A stretch of 49,577 bases of DNA, taken from NCBI GenBank assembly GCA_025350045.1, contig JANXYM010000111.1, positions 1 to 49,577 of the forward strand, given 5' to 3'. Position 1 is the stretch's first letter; every line of letters starts with the position of its first letter. Below the pieces are notes generated by a model that was not told the origin of the DNA, searched no databases, and saw only the letters and a program-made list of their open reading frames with translations. This DNA comes from Methanomicrobiales archaeon (lineage in GTDB: Archaea; Halobacteriota; Methanomicrobia; Methanomicrobiales; Methanospirillaceae). Below, in pieces: positions 9,218-42,349 of this stretch. The translations under genes and the position numbers were made by a program.

Positions 9218-10375
9218 TTACCCCATCCACCCAAGAAGGATTGCTGCACCGAGAGCAACCAGTATCCCTCCGATAACCATCCTGAGCGTACGCTTGTACT
9301 TTGTCCTCATGCCGTCAGCTCGGTCCGGGGATATACCATACGCAACGAGAAGGGTGATCACAACAAGGGGGAGGATATAGACAAGGTTGTACAGCACGAG
9401 CCATGGCAACCCGGCCATTACCGTCATCTCCCTGCCCATGAGACCGAGTATGCTGATGTAGATGCCCCCGGTACAGGTAAAACCGAGGATACCGGCAAGG
9501 ATCCCGAGAATAAATGCTGCGGGAAGGGACGCGATGCGGATATAGTTTCCGAGCATTCCTTTCTGCGATTCCGGTATGGACAGGGTAAAGGTCTCCTTGT
9601 TCCGGAGCACATCGACTATTGTTACGATCCCGAGAAGAAGAGCAATGGCCCCCCCGATAAGAGCGAACGGGCGTGAGAACCCGGATAGCGAGATTACTGA
9701 AAAAAGTCCGATTCCTACGAGAAGATGGAACAGGAACATTGCGGCGATATAGGCGCCCCCGACAAGCAGGATGCGCCTTCTGCTCCCGGCTGCAGCCATG
9801 GGAATCAACAGGAAGACCAGCACGGACAGACCGCAGGGATTGGCACTGTCAACAATTGCTGCAAAGATAACCAGGGGCAGACTGAGTTGCGGGGATTCCG
9901 GCGTGCAGACGGGCTCTTTTTCCGGGATTGCCGGTTGTGCGGTGCTGTTACAGGACAAAAGCCGCTGTTTCTCGATGAGGATCTCGGACTCAAACCGGTT
10001 GGTAATTTCAGTATCTCCGAGCAATGAGACATTTCCGATGAAAATGAGGGGAACTCCGGGACTGACAATACCGTACTGCCGGCTCATTTCCGACATCCTC
10101 TGCCGGTTTTCGGCATTGTTATAGATCTCAAGCTGGGTGAGGTTGAGTTCGGGATACTGTGTTTGAAGTGCGGCGAGGAGAGGTTTTACCTTTTCACAGT
10201 GACTGCATCCATCGCCATAAAAATAGAATGCGGTTACCGGGCCCGATGACTGGATTGCAGGGGGAAGGGGAGCAGGGGTACTGACAGGATTGAAACCGGG
10301 GGCAGCGAGAAAAAATGCTGTGCTGAGGATGATTGCTGTCAGTAATATCAGGAGAATTTTTTGTGTTTTTTCCAT
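9218..10375 (-). CDS. membrane thiol-disulfide protein: extracytoplasmic thioredoxin domain fused to CcdA/DsbD transmembrane domain
   Basis: Of 385 residues from the ATG at 10375 (an upstream start would add 18 unrelated residues), the first segment is a signal anchor (about 6-26). A thioredoxin-like domain with C57-S-H-C60 and a cis-proline V-S-P-G-V-P follows, then a CcdA/DsbD domain of six or more membrane helices. The CcdA cysteines are in S-A-N-P-C-G-L and G-F-T-C-T-G-G. Known CcdA/DsbD proteins move reducing equivalents from cytosolic thioredoxin across the membrane. Having the acceptor thioredoxin on the same chain resembles a miniature DsbD. It probably keeps secreted thiols reduced. 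The gene's start lies inside a TTGATAA inverted repeat shared with the next redox gene. Confidence 0.87.
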   Translation of the reverse strand: MEKTQKILLILLTAIILSTAFFLAAPGFNPVSTPAPLPPAIQSSGPVTAFYFYGDGCSHCEKVKPLLAALQTQYPELNLTQLEIYNNAENRQRMSEMSRQYGIVSPGVPLIFIGNVSLLGDTEITNRFESEILIEKQRLLSCNSTAQPAIPEKEPVCTPESPQLSLPLVIFAAIVDSANPCGLSVLVFLLIPMAAAGSRRRILLVGGAYIAAMFLFHLLVGIGLFSVISLSGFSRPFALIGGAIALLLGIVTIVDVLRNKETFTLSIPESQKGMLGNYIRIASLPAAFILGILAGILGFTCTGGIYISILGLMGREMTVMAGLPWLVLYNLVYILPLVVITLLVAYGISPDRADGMRTKYKRTLRMVIGGILVALGAAILLGWMG

Positions 10376-10545: not shown

Positions 10546-10962
10546 TTACCGGTTTTTTTTAATTTCTCCAATGATTGCATTTTCAAGTTTTGCAGGAATA
10601 TCCACTTCACCAATCAGGACAACATCGCCAACAACCACTTCGGGAACACCGGTACTTTTTACGCCAAGTTTCTGGTTCAGCGAAGTGAAAAGCGCCTGAT
10701 TTTTCTGGTTGTGCCATGTTTCGAGGATCTGGAAATCCACATCCGGGTATTTTGTCTTAAGCGACTCAATAAAGGGCATTATTTTGTGGCAGTGCGGGCA
10801 TTCTTCGCCGTAGAAGAAGTATACGGTCACCGTGCCCTGCAATGGACTTCCTGTTCCTGCTACGGGTGTTTTTGCAGTCTGCTGAGGTATAACTAAGAAA
10901 ATTGCGCATACGAGAACCACAACAATAACGAGTCCGGCAGAGATTTTTACGAGTTTTTCCAT
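10546..10962 (-). CDS. membrane-anchored thioredoxin-like protein
   Basis: This 138-residue protein has an N-terminal signal anchor (about 7-26) and one thioredoxin-fold domain with the redox pair C55-P-H-C58 in V-Y-F-F-Y-G-E-E-C-P-H-C, and the cis-proline segment S-T-G-V-P-E-V. It resembles the thioredoxin part of the downstream thioredoxin-CcdA fusion and is probably a partner that receives electrons from it outside the membrane. The ATG at 10962 is chosen because the signal anchor starts there; an upstream in-frame start would run through the putative operator. The two genes are in the same direction, about 170 bp apart, each with its own TTGATAA element. Confidence 0.82.
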   Translation of the reverse strand: MEKLVKISAGLVIVVVLVCAIFLVIPQQTAKTPVAGTGSPLQGTVTVYFFYGEECPHCHKIMPFIESLKTKYPDVDFQILETWHNQKNQALFTSLNQKLGVKSTGVPEVVVGDVVLIGEVDIPAKLENAIIGEIKKNR

Positions 10963-27158: not shown

Positions 27159-27569
27159 TCATGGCAACTGTAGGTAACAAATCAGTGAAGAATCTGCATA
27201 TACGAGGAGTATGTGGTAAACCAGATATATCCCAAACGGTACTGCGACTGAAACTGCTGCCTTCACCAACGACAGATTGCGAACATACTGCAATCCAACA
27301 ACCATCAGGCACGCGATCCACAGAGTGATAAGGAGAAAACCAGCCGTAATGATCATTACAAAAAGCGAATTGGTGCCCGGGCCGGGTCCGTAATTGATGA
27401 GGGAAACACGCAAGAGGGTGGCGATAACCGCAACGACAAACATGAACACTCCTAATCCGATAAGACCAAATGCTTCGGCATATCCGATGTTTTGTGCGGT
27501 CCTGATTAAAAGACCGGTTCCTTTGAAAAGGGCGGTGATTGCATAGAGCACCCGGGGCATAGAAGGCAC
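27159..27569 (-). pseudogene. N-terminally truncated Yip1-family gene fused to an aminotransferase remnant
   Basis: From about codon 15 the 136-codon frame matches the second half of the Yip1 protein at 22472. F-K-G-T-G, then N-I-G-Y, parallels F-K-G-E-G and F-I-G-Y-G there, and L-W-I-A-C-L-M-V-V-G-L-Q-Y-V-R-N-L-S parallels L-W-S-A-N-I-W-I-F-G-M-Q-H-A-R-K-L-S. Three membrane helices remain. The first half of a Yip1 protein is missing, and the first codons (M-P-S-M-P) are a shifted reading of the aminotransferase 3' remnant at 27552-27660. It is therefore a recombinant leftover, although the open frame could still make a three-helix membrane protein. Confidence 0.65.
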
Positions 27570-27660
27570 TGCCCGGGGTTACCGCCATGTGCCCCTGTCC
27601 GAGCGCGTCACTTCCAAGCAGTGCTGGTCACCTTTGAAGTGCATCGAAGAAATCATTTCT
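27552..27660 (-). pseudogene. remnant 1 of an aspartate aminotransferase 3' end
   Basis: Read on the minus strand, about 100 bp match codons near the 3' end of the intact aminotransferase at 41216-42349. One frame gives [13 protein letters not shown] against [13 protein letters not shown], and another gives F-K-G-D-Q-H-C-L-E-V-T against V-K-G-D-D-M-E-V-A. The best stretch (about 27560-27590) is nearly identical at the DNA level. The reading frame is broken, and similarity stops at P-G, where the truncated Yip1 sequence begins. Confidence 0.65.
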
Positions 27661-35579: not shown

Positions 35580-35780
35580 CTCCACCAACCTTCCGGATCC
35601 GGCCCATCCCCTCTTTCAGCCGGTCCATTGACGCCGCATACGATAGCCGGATCCAGCCCGGTGCGTCGACCCCTAGCGTTGCCGCGACATGGCCTTCTCC
35701 AGCCACGGGGTCGCAATCGCCATGTTGTTGCCGTCGACCTTGACGAAGGCCTAGAAAACCCCTTGTGCCGGGCCTCTGAA
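35580..35780 (-). pseudogene. remnant 2 of an aspartate aminotransferase 3' end
   Basis: About 200 bp on the minus strand align with the last 60 or so codons of the intact gene at 41216. Before a frameshift near 35690 one frame reads A-F-V-K-V-D-G-N-N-M-A-I-A-T-P-W-L-E-K, against [19 protein letters not shown]. After it another reads G-H-V-A-A-T-L-G-V, then [23 protein letters not shown]. Nucleotide identity looks to be about 70 percent by eye. There is no start, no upstream part and no stop at the expected place, so it is a dead fragment. Confidence 0.75.
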
Positions 35781-37532: not shown

Positions 37533-37931
37533 ATGACTCAGACGTTACCACCAGCAATCAGCCATGTCACGTATCACCGGATTTATGCAGATGCAAAAGG
37601 TGGCTCGCACTTCGATACCGTGAGTGTCCGACAGAGCCTTGCAGCCGGAGCACCGCCCGCTGCCCCGTTCTATGTCTCCGGGGACAGCCCCGCCTCGAAA
37701 TACCGTTTCTACACGTTCCAGCCCGGCTGGGTCGGTGACTGGCACCCATGTCCGGCCCGGCAGTTCCTCTCCCTCATGACAGGTGCCGTGGAGATGGAGA
37801 CGACCGACGGGACCGTCCGGCAGCTGGGGCCGGGAGACCTCGTCCTGCTTGAAGACACGACGGGCAAAGGGCATGTGACGAGAAATATCGCGGACGGTTA
37901 CACCATGTTCTTTGTCGTCCCCGTTCTGTAG
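37533..37931 (+). CDS. single-domain cupin protein
   Basis: This 132-residue beta-barrel protein has W-H-P-C-P-A-R-Q-F near residue 69, corresponding to the first cupin motif, the central strand L-S-L-M-T-G-A-V-E-M-E-T, and G-P-G-D-L-V-L-L-E-D-T-T-G-K-G-H from the second. The remaining H residues could hold one metal, although the first motif is reduced. Function is unknown. A TATA-like AACTTTATCC near 37455-37464 lies upstream. Copy A of the 264-bp repeat begins 36 bp after its stop codon. Confidence 0.8.
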   Translation: MTQTLPPAISHVTYHRIYADAKGGSHFDTVSVRQSLAAGAPPAAPFYVSGDSPASKYRFYTFQPGWVGDWHPCPARQFLSLMTGAVEMETTDGTVRQLGPGDLVLLEDTTGKGHVTRNIADGYTMFFVVPVL

Positions 37932-37966
37932 CAAAGAACCCCTGCCAGCGGAACCACCACCCCCGG

Positions 37967-38230
37967 CCCGGGCACCCCTTCCCGGACCAAAGGGCTTAGC
38001 CGATGCAGGTATGCTCCGGGCGGAGGCTGCTGGAACGTTGCTACATATTACCTCACCAATTCCCTCCTGAAAACCCCGAATTATTCCGGGAGAATTACCG
38101 CGTTTTTCCGAATTATTGCCTCTGCCAGAAAGGGAGATGAGGCAAAACTCGTACAACAGAGCTCTCTACGGGCCCGGATTTCCCTCCTCCGATGATGGGG
38201 TAAAATCAGGGGGTGTCCGACGGAGGGGGG
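37967..38230 (+). repeat. 264-bp intergenic repeat, copy A (MITE-like)
   Basis: Nearly the whole of this segment reappears at 39656-39917 in the same direction, with blocks of 18-25 identical bases (for example around the central CGTTGCTACATATTACCTCA and CGGGAGAATTACCGCGTTTT). Its ends are imperfect inverted repeats: CGGGCACCCC near the left and GGGGTGTCCG near the right, 9 of 10 positions complementary. Inside are two conserved stems: CTCCG-GG-CGGAG and GCCTC...GAGGC. No open frame is shared by the two copies, so it is non-coding; a miniature transposon or a structured RNA are the alternatives. Confidence 0.7.
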
Positions 38231-38283
38231 TGGAGGCTGACAGTCTTTGGATCACCGGTCATACAGGAAATACAACAAATCCC

Positions 38284-38293
38284 CTTTTATAAG
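38284..38293 (+). promoter_or_regulatory. TATA box of the CDGSH gene
   Basis: CTTTTATAAG is a good archaeal TATA box. It predicts transcription from about 38314 and a leader of about 70 nt that carries the ribosome site GGGAGG (38373-38378) six nt before a TTG start. Confidence 0.5.
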
Positions 38294-38384
38294 ATACAAA
38301 ACGTTTATCGGCTCACCCGGATATTCACAATCGTAATAACCGACCGTACTGAATGCACGACATACCTGTGCAGGGAGGAATACA

Positions 38385-39080
38385 TTGACCACGCGATCAG
38401 AAAAGACCGGAACAACCGATGCAATGAAGATCACCGTCACGAAGAACGGTCCGTACCTCGTGACCGGGAATGTCCCCCTCATCCAGGAGGAGATCTGCAA
38501 TGATGAGGGAGGCTACTGCCGGACCTGGAAGAAAACAAAGGAGTTTCCAAAGGCGGAGCAGTACGCCCTCTGCCGGTGCGGGCACTCGGGAGACAAGCCG
38601 TTCTGCGATGGTACGCACGCGAAGATCGGATTTGAGGGCACCGAGACTGCCGGAAGCGAACAGTACCTGAAGCACCCGCGGATCATCCGTGGGCCGGAGC
38701 TGGAGCTGCTGGACTACGAGAACCTCTGCGTCCATGCCCGGTTCTGCATGCGGGCCGGCGGGATCTGGAACCTCACGGAGCATTCGGATGATCCAGGGGC
38801 GAAGGCAACCGCGATCGAGGAGGGGTGCAACTGCCCCTCCGGGAGGCTCGTGGTCCGGGACGCGGAGACAAAGGAGGCGATCGAGCCGGCGCTTGCAAAA
38901 TCCATTGTCGTGATCGAGTACCCGCCCCGGGGCGAGCACGGGCCGCTCTGGGTACGGGGCGGGATCCCGGTCGTCTCCGCGGACGGCACGCAATACAAGG
39001 TCAGGAACCGGATGACGCTCTGCCGGTGCGGGCGGTCGGGGAACAAGCCGTTCTGTGACGGGAGCCATGTGCAGAAGTAA
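38385..39080 (+). CDS. iron-sulfur protein with two CDGSH domains and a middle Fer4_19-like domain
   Basis: This 231-residue protein is read from a TTG start, chosen because GGGAGG lies at the right distance before it; the ATG at 38424 lacks one. The first CDGSH domain has C-R-C-G-H-S-G-D-K-P-F-C-D-G-T-H (about 65-80). The last has C-R-C-G-R-S-G-N-K-P-F-C-D-G-S-H at the C-terminus. Each can hold a 2Fe-2S cluster with three Cys and one His. The middle part, with C-V-H-A-R-F-C and E-G-C-N-C-P-S-G, resembles the divergent iron-binding DUF1271/Fer4_19 domain. Probably an electron carrier or cluster-transfer protein in the cytosol. With the next gene it forms a pair between two copies of the 264-bp repeat. 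Confidence 0.85.
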   Translation: MTTRSEKTGTTDAMKITVTKNGPYLVTGNVPLIQEEICNDEGGYCRTWKKTKEFPKAEQYALCRCGHSGDKPFCDGTHAKIGFEGTETAGSEQYLKHPRIIRGPELELLDYENLCVHARFCMRAGGIWNLTEHSDDPGAKATAIEEGCNCPSGRLVVRDAETKEAIEPALAKSIVVIEYPPRGEHGPLWVRGGIPVVSADGTQYKVRNRMTLCRCGRSGNKPFCDGSHVQK

Positions 39081-39188
39081 TGAACACACCCTTCCAGACC
39101 AGCGATCTGTGGTGAACATGTGAGAATGCCGGTCCCGGCCCGGTGATATCCTGTCGGGAAATTGTAAAAAATATAACGAGGGAAAATT

Positions 39189-39635
39189 ATGGAAAAATCA
39201 AATGCAAATGTTGAGCGGAACTTGAAAGTATTCGATGACTTGGACTTCCGGGTCTACACCGGGCAGAAGTGGGAGGACCTTGGCGAGAGCCATGCAAAGG
39301 ACATTCTCGTCCACTGGCCGGACGGCCACACCACAAAGGGCATCGACACGCACATCAAAGACCTCGATGCCATGTTCGTCTTTGCCCCGGACAACCGGAT
39401 CAAAAAACATCCCGTGAAATTCGGGTCCGGGGAGTGGACCACGGTGATCGGGGAGATGGAGGGCACGTTTACGAAGCCGATGCCGCTTCCAGACGGCAAG
39501 GTGATCCCGCCGACCGGGAAAGCCTACAAGATCCCGATGTGCACCATCGGCCGGTGGAAGAACGGGGTCATGGTCGAGGAGTACCTCTTCTGGGACAACC
39601 AGACCTTCATGCAGCAGATCGGCCTTGCACCGTGA
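39189..39635 (+). CDS. SnoaL-like (ester cyclase family) protein
   Basis: This 148-residue protein has the cone-shaped NTF2/SnoaL fold pattern: an N-terminal helix V-F-D-D-L-D-F-R-V-Y-T-G, then H-A-K-D-I-L-V-H-W-P-D-G, a T-K-G-I-D-T-H-I-K-D-L-D-A-M helix, and a closing strand V-E-E-Y-L-F-W-D-N-Q-T-F-M-Q-Q-I-G-L, which is typical of ester-cyclase-like members. Members include polyketide cyclases and many proteins of unknown activity; no polyketide genes are nearby. GAGGG before the ATG and an AT-rich AAAATATAAC upstream support the start. Repeat copy B starts 20 bp after its stop. Confidence 0.8.
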   Translation: MEKSNANVERNLKVFDDLDFRVYTGQKWEDLGESHAKDILVHWPDGHTTKGIDTHIKDLDAMFVFAPDNRIKKHPVKFGSGEWTTVIGEMEGTFTKPMPLPDGKVIPPTGKAYKIPMCTIGRWKNGVMVEEYLFWDNQTFMQQIGLAP

Positions 39636-39655
39636 GGGAATTTCTTTTTTTTATC

Positions 39656-39917
39656 CCCGGGCACCCCCTCCCGGATCTCAGGGCTTAGCCGATACAGGTG
39701 TGCTCCGGGCGGAGGCTGCTGCAACGTTGCTACATATTACCTCAATGATTCCCGCCTTAAAACCCTGATTTGTTCCGGGAGAATTACCGCGTTTTTCCGT
39801 TTCATTGCCTCTGCCAAAAGGGGGGGGTGAGGCAAAACACATACAACGGGGCTCTCTGCGGGCCTGGATTCTTTATCGTCGTGGAGGGGGTGAAAGCGAG
39901 GGGTGTCCGACGGGGGG
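39656..39917 (+). repeat. 264-bp intergenic repeat, copy B (MITE-like)
   Basis: This is the second copy of the element at 37967-38230, same direction, with a few indels. The terminal inverted repeats and both internal stems are kept, including GCCTC...GAGGC although its loop has changed. Like copy A it sits just past a rightward gene. The rest of the gap to 39981 holds no gene. Confidence 0.7.
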
Positions 39918-39981: not shown

Positions 39982-40875
39982 CTAACTTTCCTCTCGAATT
40001 TTTTTAATATTCTGTAATCTTCTTTCAGATGATGGATGATCGTAAAAGATCAAATCAAATAGCAATCCATGATCGGGCTGAAAAAATTCTTTAATTTGAA
40101 AAAATGATTCAAAGGATTGGATAGATTTTATTTTTTCAGCTCCATAGTAGTCGGCAGATAACTCCTCATACCAAAAAAGATAGTGGAGTATCATTATTCC
40201 CAAAATATAGAGAACGAATGTCGTGATTACAAAGTAAATAGCATTCGTTACAATTAATGCCGACGTTAATTCCCCCACAAAACAAGTGAAAATTAGGTAT
40301 CCCATCATAACTACAACAAATAGTATCCGATAGTCACGGCTTTTATAATGCGCAACTTCATGAGATAATGTAAAAAGTAATTCAGATTTGTTTACGAGTT
40401 TTAAGAAATTTTTTCCAACGTGAATAATGAGATTCCCTTTTGATATTTCTCTTTGAACATTTGGACAGTTGCCGTCATCATAGACAATTATTTTAATTTG
40501 TTCCGGTTTTAAATTCCAAATTTTAACGATATACTCCTTTGTGTCATTATCCACAAAATCTTCGACTTTAACATTGGTTTTATTCGAAAAGACATTGTAG
40601 ATATTCAACAATGCCAGGAATAAGAAAAAATAAAAAATGCTGAACATTACCGCAACAGGAACCGGGGTATAGAGCAGCGGAAAATAATTAAAAAATGTTA
40701 TGGGAATCGGAAAAGTCAGAGAGAAAAGTAGTCCCTGAGCATACGACATTATCAAAAAGAGATACGCCCATTTCCGTGATAGTGACACTCGGTCTATTGC
40801 ATATTTCGATATCAACAATAAAATTCCGAAACAAATCAGCCAAATAAAAATGTTAAAAACTAACACATAGGGCAT
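39982..40875 (-). CDS. M48-family membrane metallopeptidase
   Basis: This 297-residue integral membrane peptidase has two N-terminal membrane helices, a third near 80-95, the zinc motif H172-E-V-A-H176 with the trailing Y-K-S-R-D, two further helices, the downstream glutamate in E-E-L-S-A-D-Y-Y-G, and the closing D-H-P-S-S-E-R-R-L motif of HtpX/Ste24 relatives. All catalytic residues are visible. Such enzymes cut misfolded or signal-bearing membrane proteins. The gene is strikingly AT-rich compared with everything around it. It shares a short AT-rich promoter region with the divergent small membrane protein gene. Confidence 0.85.
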   Translation of the reverse strand: MPYVLVFNIFIWLICFGILLLISKYAIDRVSLSRKWAYLFLIMSYAQGLLFSLTFPIPITFFNYFPLLYTPVPVAVMFSIFYFFLFLALLNIYNVFSNKTNVKVEDFVDNDTKEYIVKIWNLKPEQIKIIVYDDGNCPNVQREISKGNLIIHVGKNFLKLVNKSELLFTLSHEVAHYKSRDYRILFVVVMMGYLIFTCFVGELTSALIVTNAIYFVITTFVLYILGIMILHYLFWYEELSADYYGAEKIKSIQSFESFFQIKEFFQPDHGLLFDLIFYDHPSSERRLQNIKKIREES

Positions 40876-40911
40876 AACAAAACAATTTCTCCATCATTCT
40901 TTCATTTGCAG

Positions 40912-40927
40912 AATTATTATTTAATAA
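40912..40927. promoter_or_regulatory. shared AT-rich divergent promoter
   Basis: TTATTATTTAATAAAA contains TATA-like elements on both strands. To the right it is about 26 nt from the ATG at 40946 (leaderless); to the left it would start the M48 mRNA about 17 nt before its ATG at 40875. Confidence 0.4.
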
Positions 40928-40945
40928 AACCTTGAATTAATTCTT

Positions 40946-41164
40946 ATGAGCGCGGATGATGAGTCCAGAAAAATGCTAGTATTTGGAGTGGCGATGGGCG
41001 CAGCGATCGGAATTTTTGGAAATTTATGGGTCGGGGCCCTTCTAAATTTTTTTGGTAATAATCCAACAATCGATTTTGTATTGTTCATTATTGGTTTTTT
41101 ACCATGGTTATGGGCTCTTTATCAAATTTTAAAGATTCTTCCACAACCGAACCAATCCAAATAA
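40946..41164 (+). CDS. small two-helix membrane protein
   Basis: This 72-residue protein is of no known family. A charged N-terminus (A-D-D-E-S-R-K) is followed by a Gly-rich helix (about 11-34) and a second helix (about 43-64), with a short P-Q-P-N-Q-S-K tail. Both ends are probably on the same side of the membrane. It is AT-rich like the divergent M48 peptidase and probably arrived with it. A cofactor, substrate or regulator of the peptidase is possible but not shown. The promoter fit supports this start. Confidence 0.6.
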   Translation: MSADDESRKMLVFGVAMGAAIGIFGNLWVGALLNFFGNNPTIDFVLFIIGFLPWLWALYQILKILPQPNQSK

Positions 41165-41215: not shown

Positions 41216-42349
41216 TTACCCCACCCTCTTGATCCTTGCCATCGCCTCTTTCAGCTTCTCCATCGAGGCCGCGTACGACAGCCGGACCCATCCCGGCGCA
41301 TAGAACGCACTGCCCGGGGTTGCCGCCACATGGCCTTTGTCAAGCCACCGGGACGCAACTTCCATATCGTCGCCCTTCACCTTCACGAAGGCATAGAACG
41401 CACCCTCGGCCGGGGCCGTCTCGTAACCCATCGCTTTGAGCTCTGCGATGACGTACTTCCGCCGCTTGTCAAACTCCTGCCGCATCTCCTCCACGCACTT
41501 CTGGTCGCCCTTAAGCGCTGCAACCCCGCCGAACATGGCAAAGGTCGTGACCTGGCTGATGGAGTGCTGCTGCACCTTGGACATCTCAGCGATGATCTCC
41601 TTGGGGGCCACCGCGTACCCGAGCCGCCAGCCGGTCATCGCGTAGGCCTTCGAGAAGCCGTTGATGGTGATGGTCCGGTGGTGCATGTCGCCAATCGCCG
41701 CGAGCGAGATGTGCTCCTTGCCGTAGATCATCTTCTCGTAGATCTCATCCGACATCGCGTACAGGTCGTTGTCCTCGCAGAGGTCCGCGATGAGCTGCAT
41801 GGACTTCTTATCAAAAACAGCGCCCGTGGGGTTCGAGGGCGAGTTGACGATGATCATCTTCGTCTTTTTGGTGACCTTCTCTAAAAGGGAGTCGTCGAGC
41901 TGGAACGTTTTCGGGTTGATCTCGTGGAAGACCGGCTTCCCGCCCGCGATCTGGATGCAGGGCTCATACGAGACCCAGGCCGGCGTGAGGATGATCGTCT
42001 CGTCGCCCGGGTTCAGCACGGCCTCGCAGGCCTCGTAGATGGCGTTCTTGGCCCCGCAGGCAACGATCACCTGCTGCGGCGTGCAGGGGAACTTGTTTTC
42101 CTTCGTGATCTTCTCGGCAATGGCGCCGGTCAGCTCGGGGATACCGTTGCTCGGGGCGTAATGGGTCTCGCCTTTCTTCAGCGCCGCGATGCAGGCATCG
42201 GTGATATGCTGCGGGGTGTCGAAGTCCGGCTCGCCGATCGAGAGGCTGATGACATCGATCCCCTGCCGCTGCATGGCCTTGGCTTTGTTGGAGATCGCGA
42301 TCGTCGCCGACTCGGTGACGGCGGCGATCTTTTTGGAGAGCGGTTTCAT
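41216..42349 (-). CDS. aspartate/aromatic aminotransferase, class I
   Basis: This 377-residue fold type I PLP enzyme of the AspC/AlaT type-I-gamma group has [10 protein letters not shown] near residue 37, N-S-P-S-N-P-T-G (about 165), the Schiff-base lysine K234 in [13 protein letters not shown], and the carboxylate-binding R in P-G-W-V-R-L-S-Y. It exchanges amino groups between aspartate or related amino acids and 2-oxoglutarate. It overlaps ribH by 4 bp and is the last gene of a leftward run from the class V aminotransferase. Its 3' end is the sequence found again in decayed form at 27552 and 35580. Confidence 0.92.

Follow-up and report, generated by a model that had tools for sequence, protein, structure and literature searches.

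A stretch of 49,577 nucleotides from a Methanomicrobiales archaeon (contig JANXYM010000111.1 of assembly GCA_025350045.1), hereafter the window, carries two long, similar, non-coding sequences on either side of a pair of genes, which raises the question of what this repeat is and how it spreads. Both copies lie on the forward strand, the first (264 bp) at 37967..38230 and the second (262 bp) at 39656..39917. Pairwise alignment gives 84% identity over 262-265 nt and a score of 246 bits, against a top match of 32.5 bits among 200 dinucleotide-shuffled windows. The two copies described by the initial annotation are therefore real and far beyond chance. The upstream genes are a cupin-type gene (37533..37931, forward; Cupin_2, 24 bits, slightly under the cut-off), whose stop lies about 35 bp before copy 1, and a SnoaL-like gene (39189..39635, forward), whose stop lies about 20 bp before copy 2. 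Both spacings fall in the 20-35 bp past a rightward gene that had been proposed. Domain matches likewise bear out the naming of the bracketed pair, which consists of a CDGSH iron-sulfur protein gene (38385..39080, forward) and the SnoaL-like gene. A tandem duplication of gene and element is rejected, since the genes beside the copies, cupin and SnoaL-like, are unrelated. Also rejected is a 3' regulator bound to the cupin gene, since most of its other fetched relatives had no detected element in the fetched flank, the exceptions being L033 and L055.

The first of these exceptions, a relative of the window with 97% identity, departs from it at 37947, which leaves 20 bp to the element; beyond that point, its element copy and its genes are not those of the window. 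This switch fits gene turnover beside elements, among other readings. Movement of the bracketed 1.4 kb as a unit, suggested earlier, stays conjectural. Downstream of the element in this relative, two genes recognised by eye as a nucleotidyltransferase/HEPN-like pair occupy L033:2602-3319, where the window has CDGSH-SnoaL. Elsewhere in the window, decayed copies of the 3' end of an aminotransferase gene (41216-42349) occur at 35604-35772 and 27551-27587, and six genomes have elements in the vicinity of this gene that, judging from coordinates, point to its 3' end. Relatives show the same decayed 3' ends (L059:8042-8117; L061:8455-8615, 9443-9646 and 10863-10908), which therefore suggests that the region is a hotspot of integration or duplication, used repeatedly at the gene end in several genomes. 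At 39982-41164, the window is markedly AT-rich relative to its surroundings; genes for an M48 peptidase and for a small membrane-protein-like product lie there.

A DNA search, followed by a sequence model built from 62 copies, placed the element in a family that extends well beyond this contig. The core model (HMM/CM) matches in 32 of 39 Methanoregula-like genomes, which make up the genus, with 1-19 copies each and eight in the window's own genome; further copies, whose absence would have spoken against a mobile or RNA element, are thus plentiful. Outside the genus, one sister genus of the same family contributes two genomes with copies; the 150 genomes searched across the order otherwise yielded a single marginal match (E 9e-4). 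The named relatives returned by the searches are Methanoregula and Methanomicrobiales assemblies. A core of about 150 nt is conserved, and extensions like those of the window at the 5' and 3' ends are found in a subset of copies. In copy 1, the core (about 150-160 nt kept across the genus) spans 38024..38183, with model matches at 38024-38184; in copy 2, it spans 39713..39875. Placement is extragenic, with only 2 of 136 collected copies overlapping a predicted gene. Many copies are solitary in closed genomes, and those in clusters mostly share one orientation. No Rfam family matches the element, so a known Rfam family is rejected, in keeping with the initial annotation, which had recognised no named family. 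Among the papers searched on archaeal REPs and Methanoregula repeats, none describes this family.

Several observations accompany the family survey. At L065 and L071 (G028), the element is followed on its 3' side by units of about 52 bp in tandem, which contain small palindromes (GAAGAACCATCAGGTTCTTC). Three core copies (L074:3335-3543, L080:239-447 and L109:2872-3081) are split by about 40 bp, and model positions 85-91 recur on either side of the interruption, such as a short insertion with a 7-nt duplication would leave them. Genes for a PemK/MazF-like toxin and an AbrB-like antitoxin, both named by eye, adjoin elements in several genomes, at L059:3431-3989, L061:6010-6568 and L066:241-627; upstream of the element at L031 and L106, only an antitoxin-like gene was picked up.

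Selection on structure, which had been read from the conserved stem, finds no support in the alignment of the family. The stem formed by TTGCCTC (38116..38122, 5' arm) and GAGGCAA (38139..38145, 3' arm), both on the forward strand, is real but near-invariant in sequence within subfamily A, and across the wider family about one third of copies lack two of the seven pairs. Neither this stem nor the terminal repeats showed covariation in excess of shuffles, and the 62 copies contain no base-pair covariation; RNAalifold predicted 0 pairs on the family alignment, and single copies fold with ordinary energies (z -0.09 and +0.49). A structured RNA is accordingly rejected on covariation and the lack of an Rfam match. 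The 10-bp terminal complementarity (CGGGCACCCC/GGGGTGTCCG, with one G-U) exists in the window copies and does not extend to the family: among 16 full-length relatives, the ends pair in only 53-58% of cells and are broken in nearly half. Two main subfamilies are distinguished by linked changes in a motif, TTRCCTC or TGACCTC, present twice in direct orientation and once inverted. In copy 1, the first direct copy is TTACCTC (38048..38054, forward; columns 28-34 of alignment A1), and the two stem arms supply the second direct copy and the inverted one. Columns 29, 102 and 129 show correlated, non-base-pairing changes across the three motif copies, and these changes separate the subfamilies. They resemble what a shifting site of protein binding would produce more than they resemble RNA structure, and the columns may be co-evolving protein-recognition positions.

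A tree of 127 cores bears on how the copies multiplied. Copies from one genome tend to group together (72 label changes versus 106 after shuffling, 0/200), and some orthologous sites are common to close species. One supported clade joins two gene-less copies of genome G060 with a copy linked to a gene of the family described below. This clade and the clustering by genome fit spread within genomes, although regional or tandem duplication could account for part of the pattern. A search over about 200 loci brought to light neither a clean empty site nor a target duplication nor an excision product. The fetched loci, where it had been proposed to look for target duplications, included no empty site; an apparent gap in L144 relative to L146/L147 has a boundary that is not interpretable. 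Between the alternatives first offered, a mobile element or a structured RNA or 3' regulator, the dispersed extragenic copies favour the former, and the missing covariation weighs against selection on RNA structure. As a dispersed, extragenic, non-coding repeat, the element is best explained as mobile or amplifying.

The genes near the 136 collected copies are dominated by one orphan protein family of about 120-150 aa, for which we coin the name EAP. Neither window copy adjoins an EAP gene, so this cognate family was invisible from the window alone. EAP has no match in Pfam, NCBIfam or PHROG, and none was found in viruses or plasmids. It is present in 38 of 39 genomes of the genus, mostly as several paralogues, and a wider profile, run against 393 genomes of the phylum, detected it in 32, of which a single one falls outside the family to which Methanoregula belongs. 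With dN/dS of 0.11-0.45, EAP is a real protein under purifying selection. The gene reads towards the element, and the distance from its stop to the element is often 19-35 or 60-90 bp and reaches a few hundred. Among close members, defined as genes scoring at least 139 bits (n=30), 28 have the element in antisense orientation within 400 bp of the stop; given about eight copies in 2.5 Mb, proximity by chance is well below 1% per gene.

The pairing is general, because more divergent EAP genes that were tested carry scattered 3' repeat families of their own; in all, three repeat families are dispersed. In genome G021, the sequence 3' of a divergent EAP gene occurs at nine places, six of them without a listed EAP within 500 bp, whereas the control, the upstream flank of the same gene, recurs there only beside EAP genes. 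Another EAP gene, from the window's own genome, has a 3' flank found at nine places in that genome, seven of which lack a listed EAP. For a third (L193), the 3' flank gives mostly short dispersed matches of the hairpin end, not whole copies. Of 39 divergent EAP genes, 15 have an element-end motif, GGCYCSGWTT, in the 3' flank and none (0/39) has it in the 5' flank, against a background of 2% per window scanned. Many divergent EAP genes have no 3' element recognisable by the models used. Distances between EAP proteins and between their linked elements correlate (Mantel r 0.88, 0/5000 permutations). This co-divergence shows stable pairs and not interaction, because linked loci are expected to correlate by common descent.

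Structure prediction suggests a fold for this orphan family. A model built from 35 divergent members has a mean pLDDT of 87.6. Hjc-type resolvases take all of its first 15 places in a Foldseek search (E 1e-4 to 9e-4); superposed on 1gef, the model aligns 103 residues at an rmsd of 3.5 (VIA Z 10.3). The model of the window-type EAP is weaker and also points to Hjc and splicing-endonuclease folds. The predicted fold is thus that of the archaeal Holliday-junction resolvase Hjc (PF01870; PDB 1gef, 2wcw and 1ob8), which EAP also resembles in size and in the beta-2 aspartate retained by most members. EAP differs from Hjc in being multicopy and repeat-linked and in its sequence: none of the 35 members matches the PF01870 profile, and an EAP profile searched against solved structures found nothing credible. 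A PF01870 search for an annotated Hjc in the window's own genome also gave no match. Archaeal tRNA-splicing endonuclease subunits share a related nuclease-like fold (VIA Z about 7), with a similarity below that of Hjc and without a sequence match. Many divergent members have KxK on beta-3, and the glutamate of ExK is missing in all aligned EAPs (KxK or RxK, or lost), as read from the alignment without superposition of side chains. Because this glutamate of PD-(D/E)XK nucleases is absent throughout, nuclease activity of EAP appears doubtful.

These observations are best accommodated by a protein-plus-repeat system comparable to REP/RAYT, built on an unrelated protein of Hjc-like fold and encountered so far in Methanoregula and its family, a reading to which we assign a probability of roughly 0.55. 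At EAP loci, the element lies antisense right after the stop of the gene, and different EAP lineages have different repeat families at that place. EAP would most likely recognise a structured form of its own repeat, hairpin or cruciform DNA, and would promote in trans the copying or recombination of the repeat into other intergenic sites. Copies without a gene, including both in the window, would then be non-autonomous. In the bacterial REP/REPIN systems with RAYT (TnpA_REP), a gene, an adjacent repeat and scattered gene-less repeats occur together; the RAYT proteins belong to the HuH/Y1 nucleases, and a REP is a short palindrome that carries a GTAG motif (PMC3116915, PMC8266576). The likeness lies in a cognate gene beside a repeat that is also dispersed, in several gene-repeat lineages and in an excess of gene-less over gene-linked copies. 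The EAP system is nevertheless not a member of REP/RAYT (REPtron), because its protein is not a HuH nuclease and its repeat is not a short GTAG palindrome: EAP has no HuH or Pfam transposase match and is predicted to resemble Hjc where RAYTs are of the IS200/IS605 type, and the element, 3' of its gene, measures about 150-265 bp with a core of about 150 nt that is not one short palindrome. A more specific proposal, that a lineage-restricted, catalytically altered Hjc-fold protein fills the role that HuH transposases have for bacterial REPs, through recognition of a cruciform or hairpin in its own 3' repeat, is tentative and falls somewhat short of even odds.

Other readings account for parts of the same evidence. 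The element could belong to the EAP message as its 3' UTR, or be an antisense RNA convergent with it, and be bound by EAP for self-regulation, with gene-less copies placing other genes under the same control. Its position 19-90 bp past the EAP stop at many loci, its frequent location 3' of genes other than EAP and the closeness of the predicted fold to tRNA-splicing endonuclease subunits agree with such a role, which is nonetheless unlikely: the 62 copies conserve sequence and not base pairing, gene-less copies mostly have unrelated neighbours, and copy number differs widely between congeners. The same range in copy number, 0 to 19, also counts against a chromosomal site that a junction-binding EAP occupies and that host selection retains, with a function in the control of the nucleoid, the replication fork or recombination. 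Strong sequence conservation, extragenic placement and a protein of predicted Hjc fold under purifying selection would suit such a site, but copies cluster by genome and there are several separate repeat families, and we consider it improbable.

Two further alternatives concern mobility itself. In an integron-like system, the element would be a recombination site and the small neighbouring genes its cassettes, as the shared orientation of clustered copies, their frequent position after genes, the duplicated 3' ends at the aminotransferase hotspot and the change of content at the element edge in L033 might suggest. Yet many copies are solitary in closed genomes, EAP, the sole neighbour that is constant, is found on the opposite side and reads in the opposite orientation, and no integrase was incidentally noticed beside copies; a cassette system is improbable. 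An ordinary MITE moved by a conventional transposase, with the EAP linkage a relic of an old hitch-hiking event, would match the length (150-265 bp, within the 100-400 bp of archaeal and bacterial MITEs), the non-coding, extragenic character and the several dispersed copies per genome. Against it count terminal inverted repeats that are not conserved, the fact that no target duplication or parent transposon was seen, and an EAP linkage that recurs with different repeat families; it is very improbable.

Under the preferred reading of a protein-plus-repeat system built on EAP, the finding reaches beyond this locus. In bacteria, the proliferation of short repeats has been linked to HuH nucleases; an Hjc-fold protein in that role, if true, would be a new protein route to it. 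An archaeal gene-plus-repeat system with a resolvase fold and many paralogous pairs would show that such a lifestyle evolved more than once, and the EAP-repeat pairs would offer a testable system for repeat recognition. For the Methanoregulaceae, a multicopy orphan protein family now has a name, and unannotated intergenic DNA of these wetland methanogens has an explanation.
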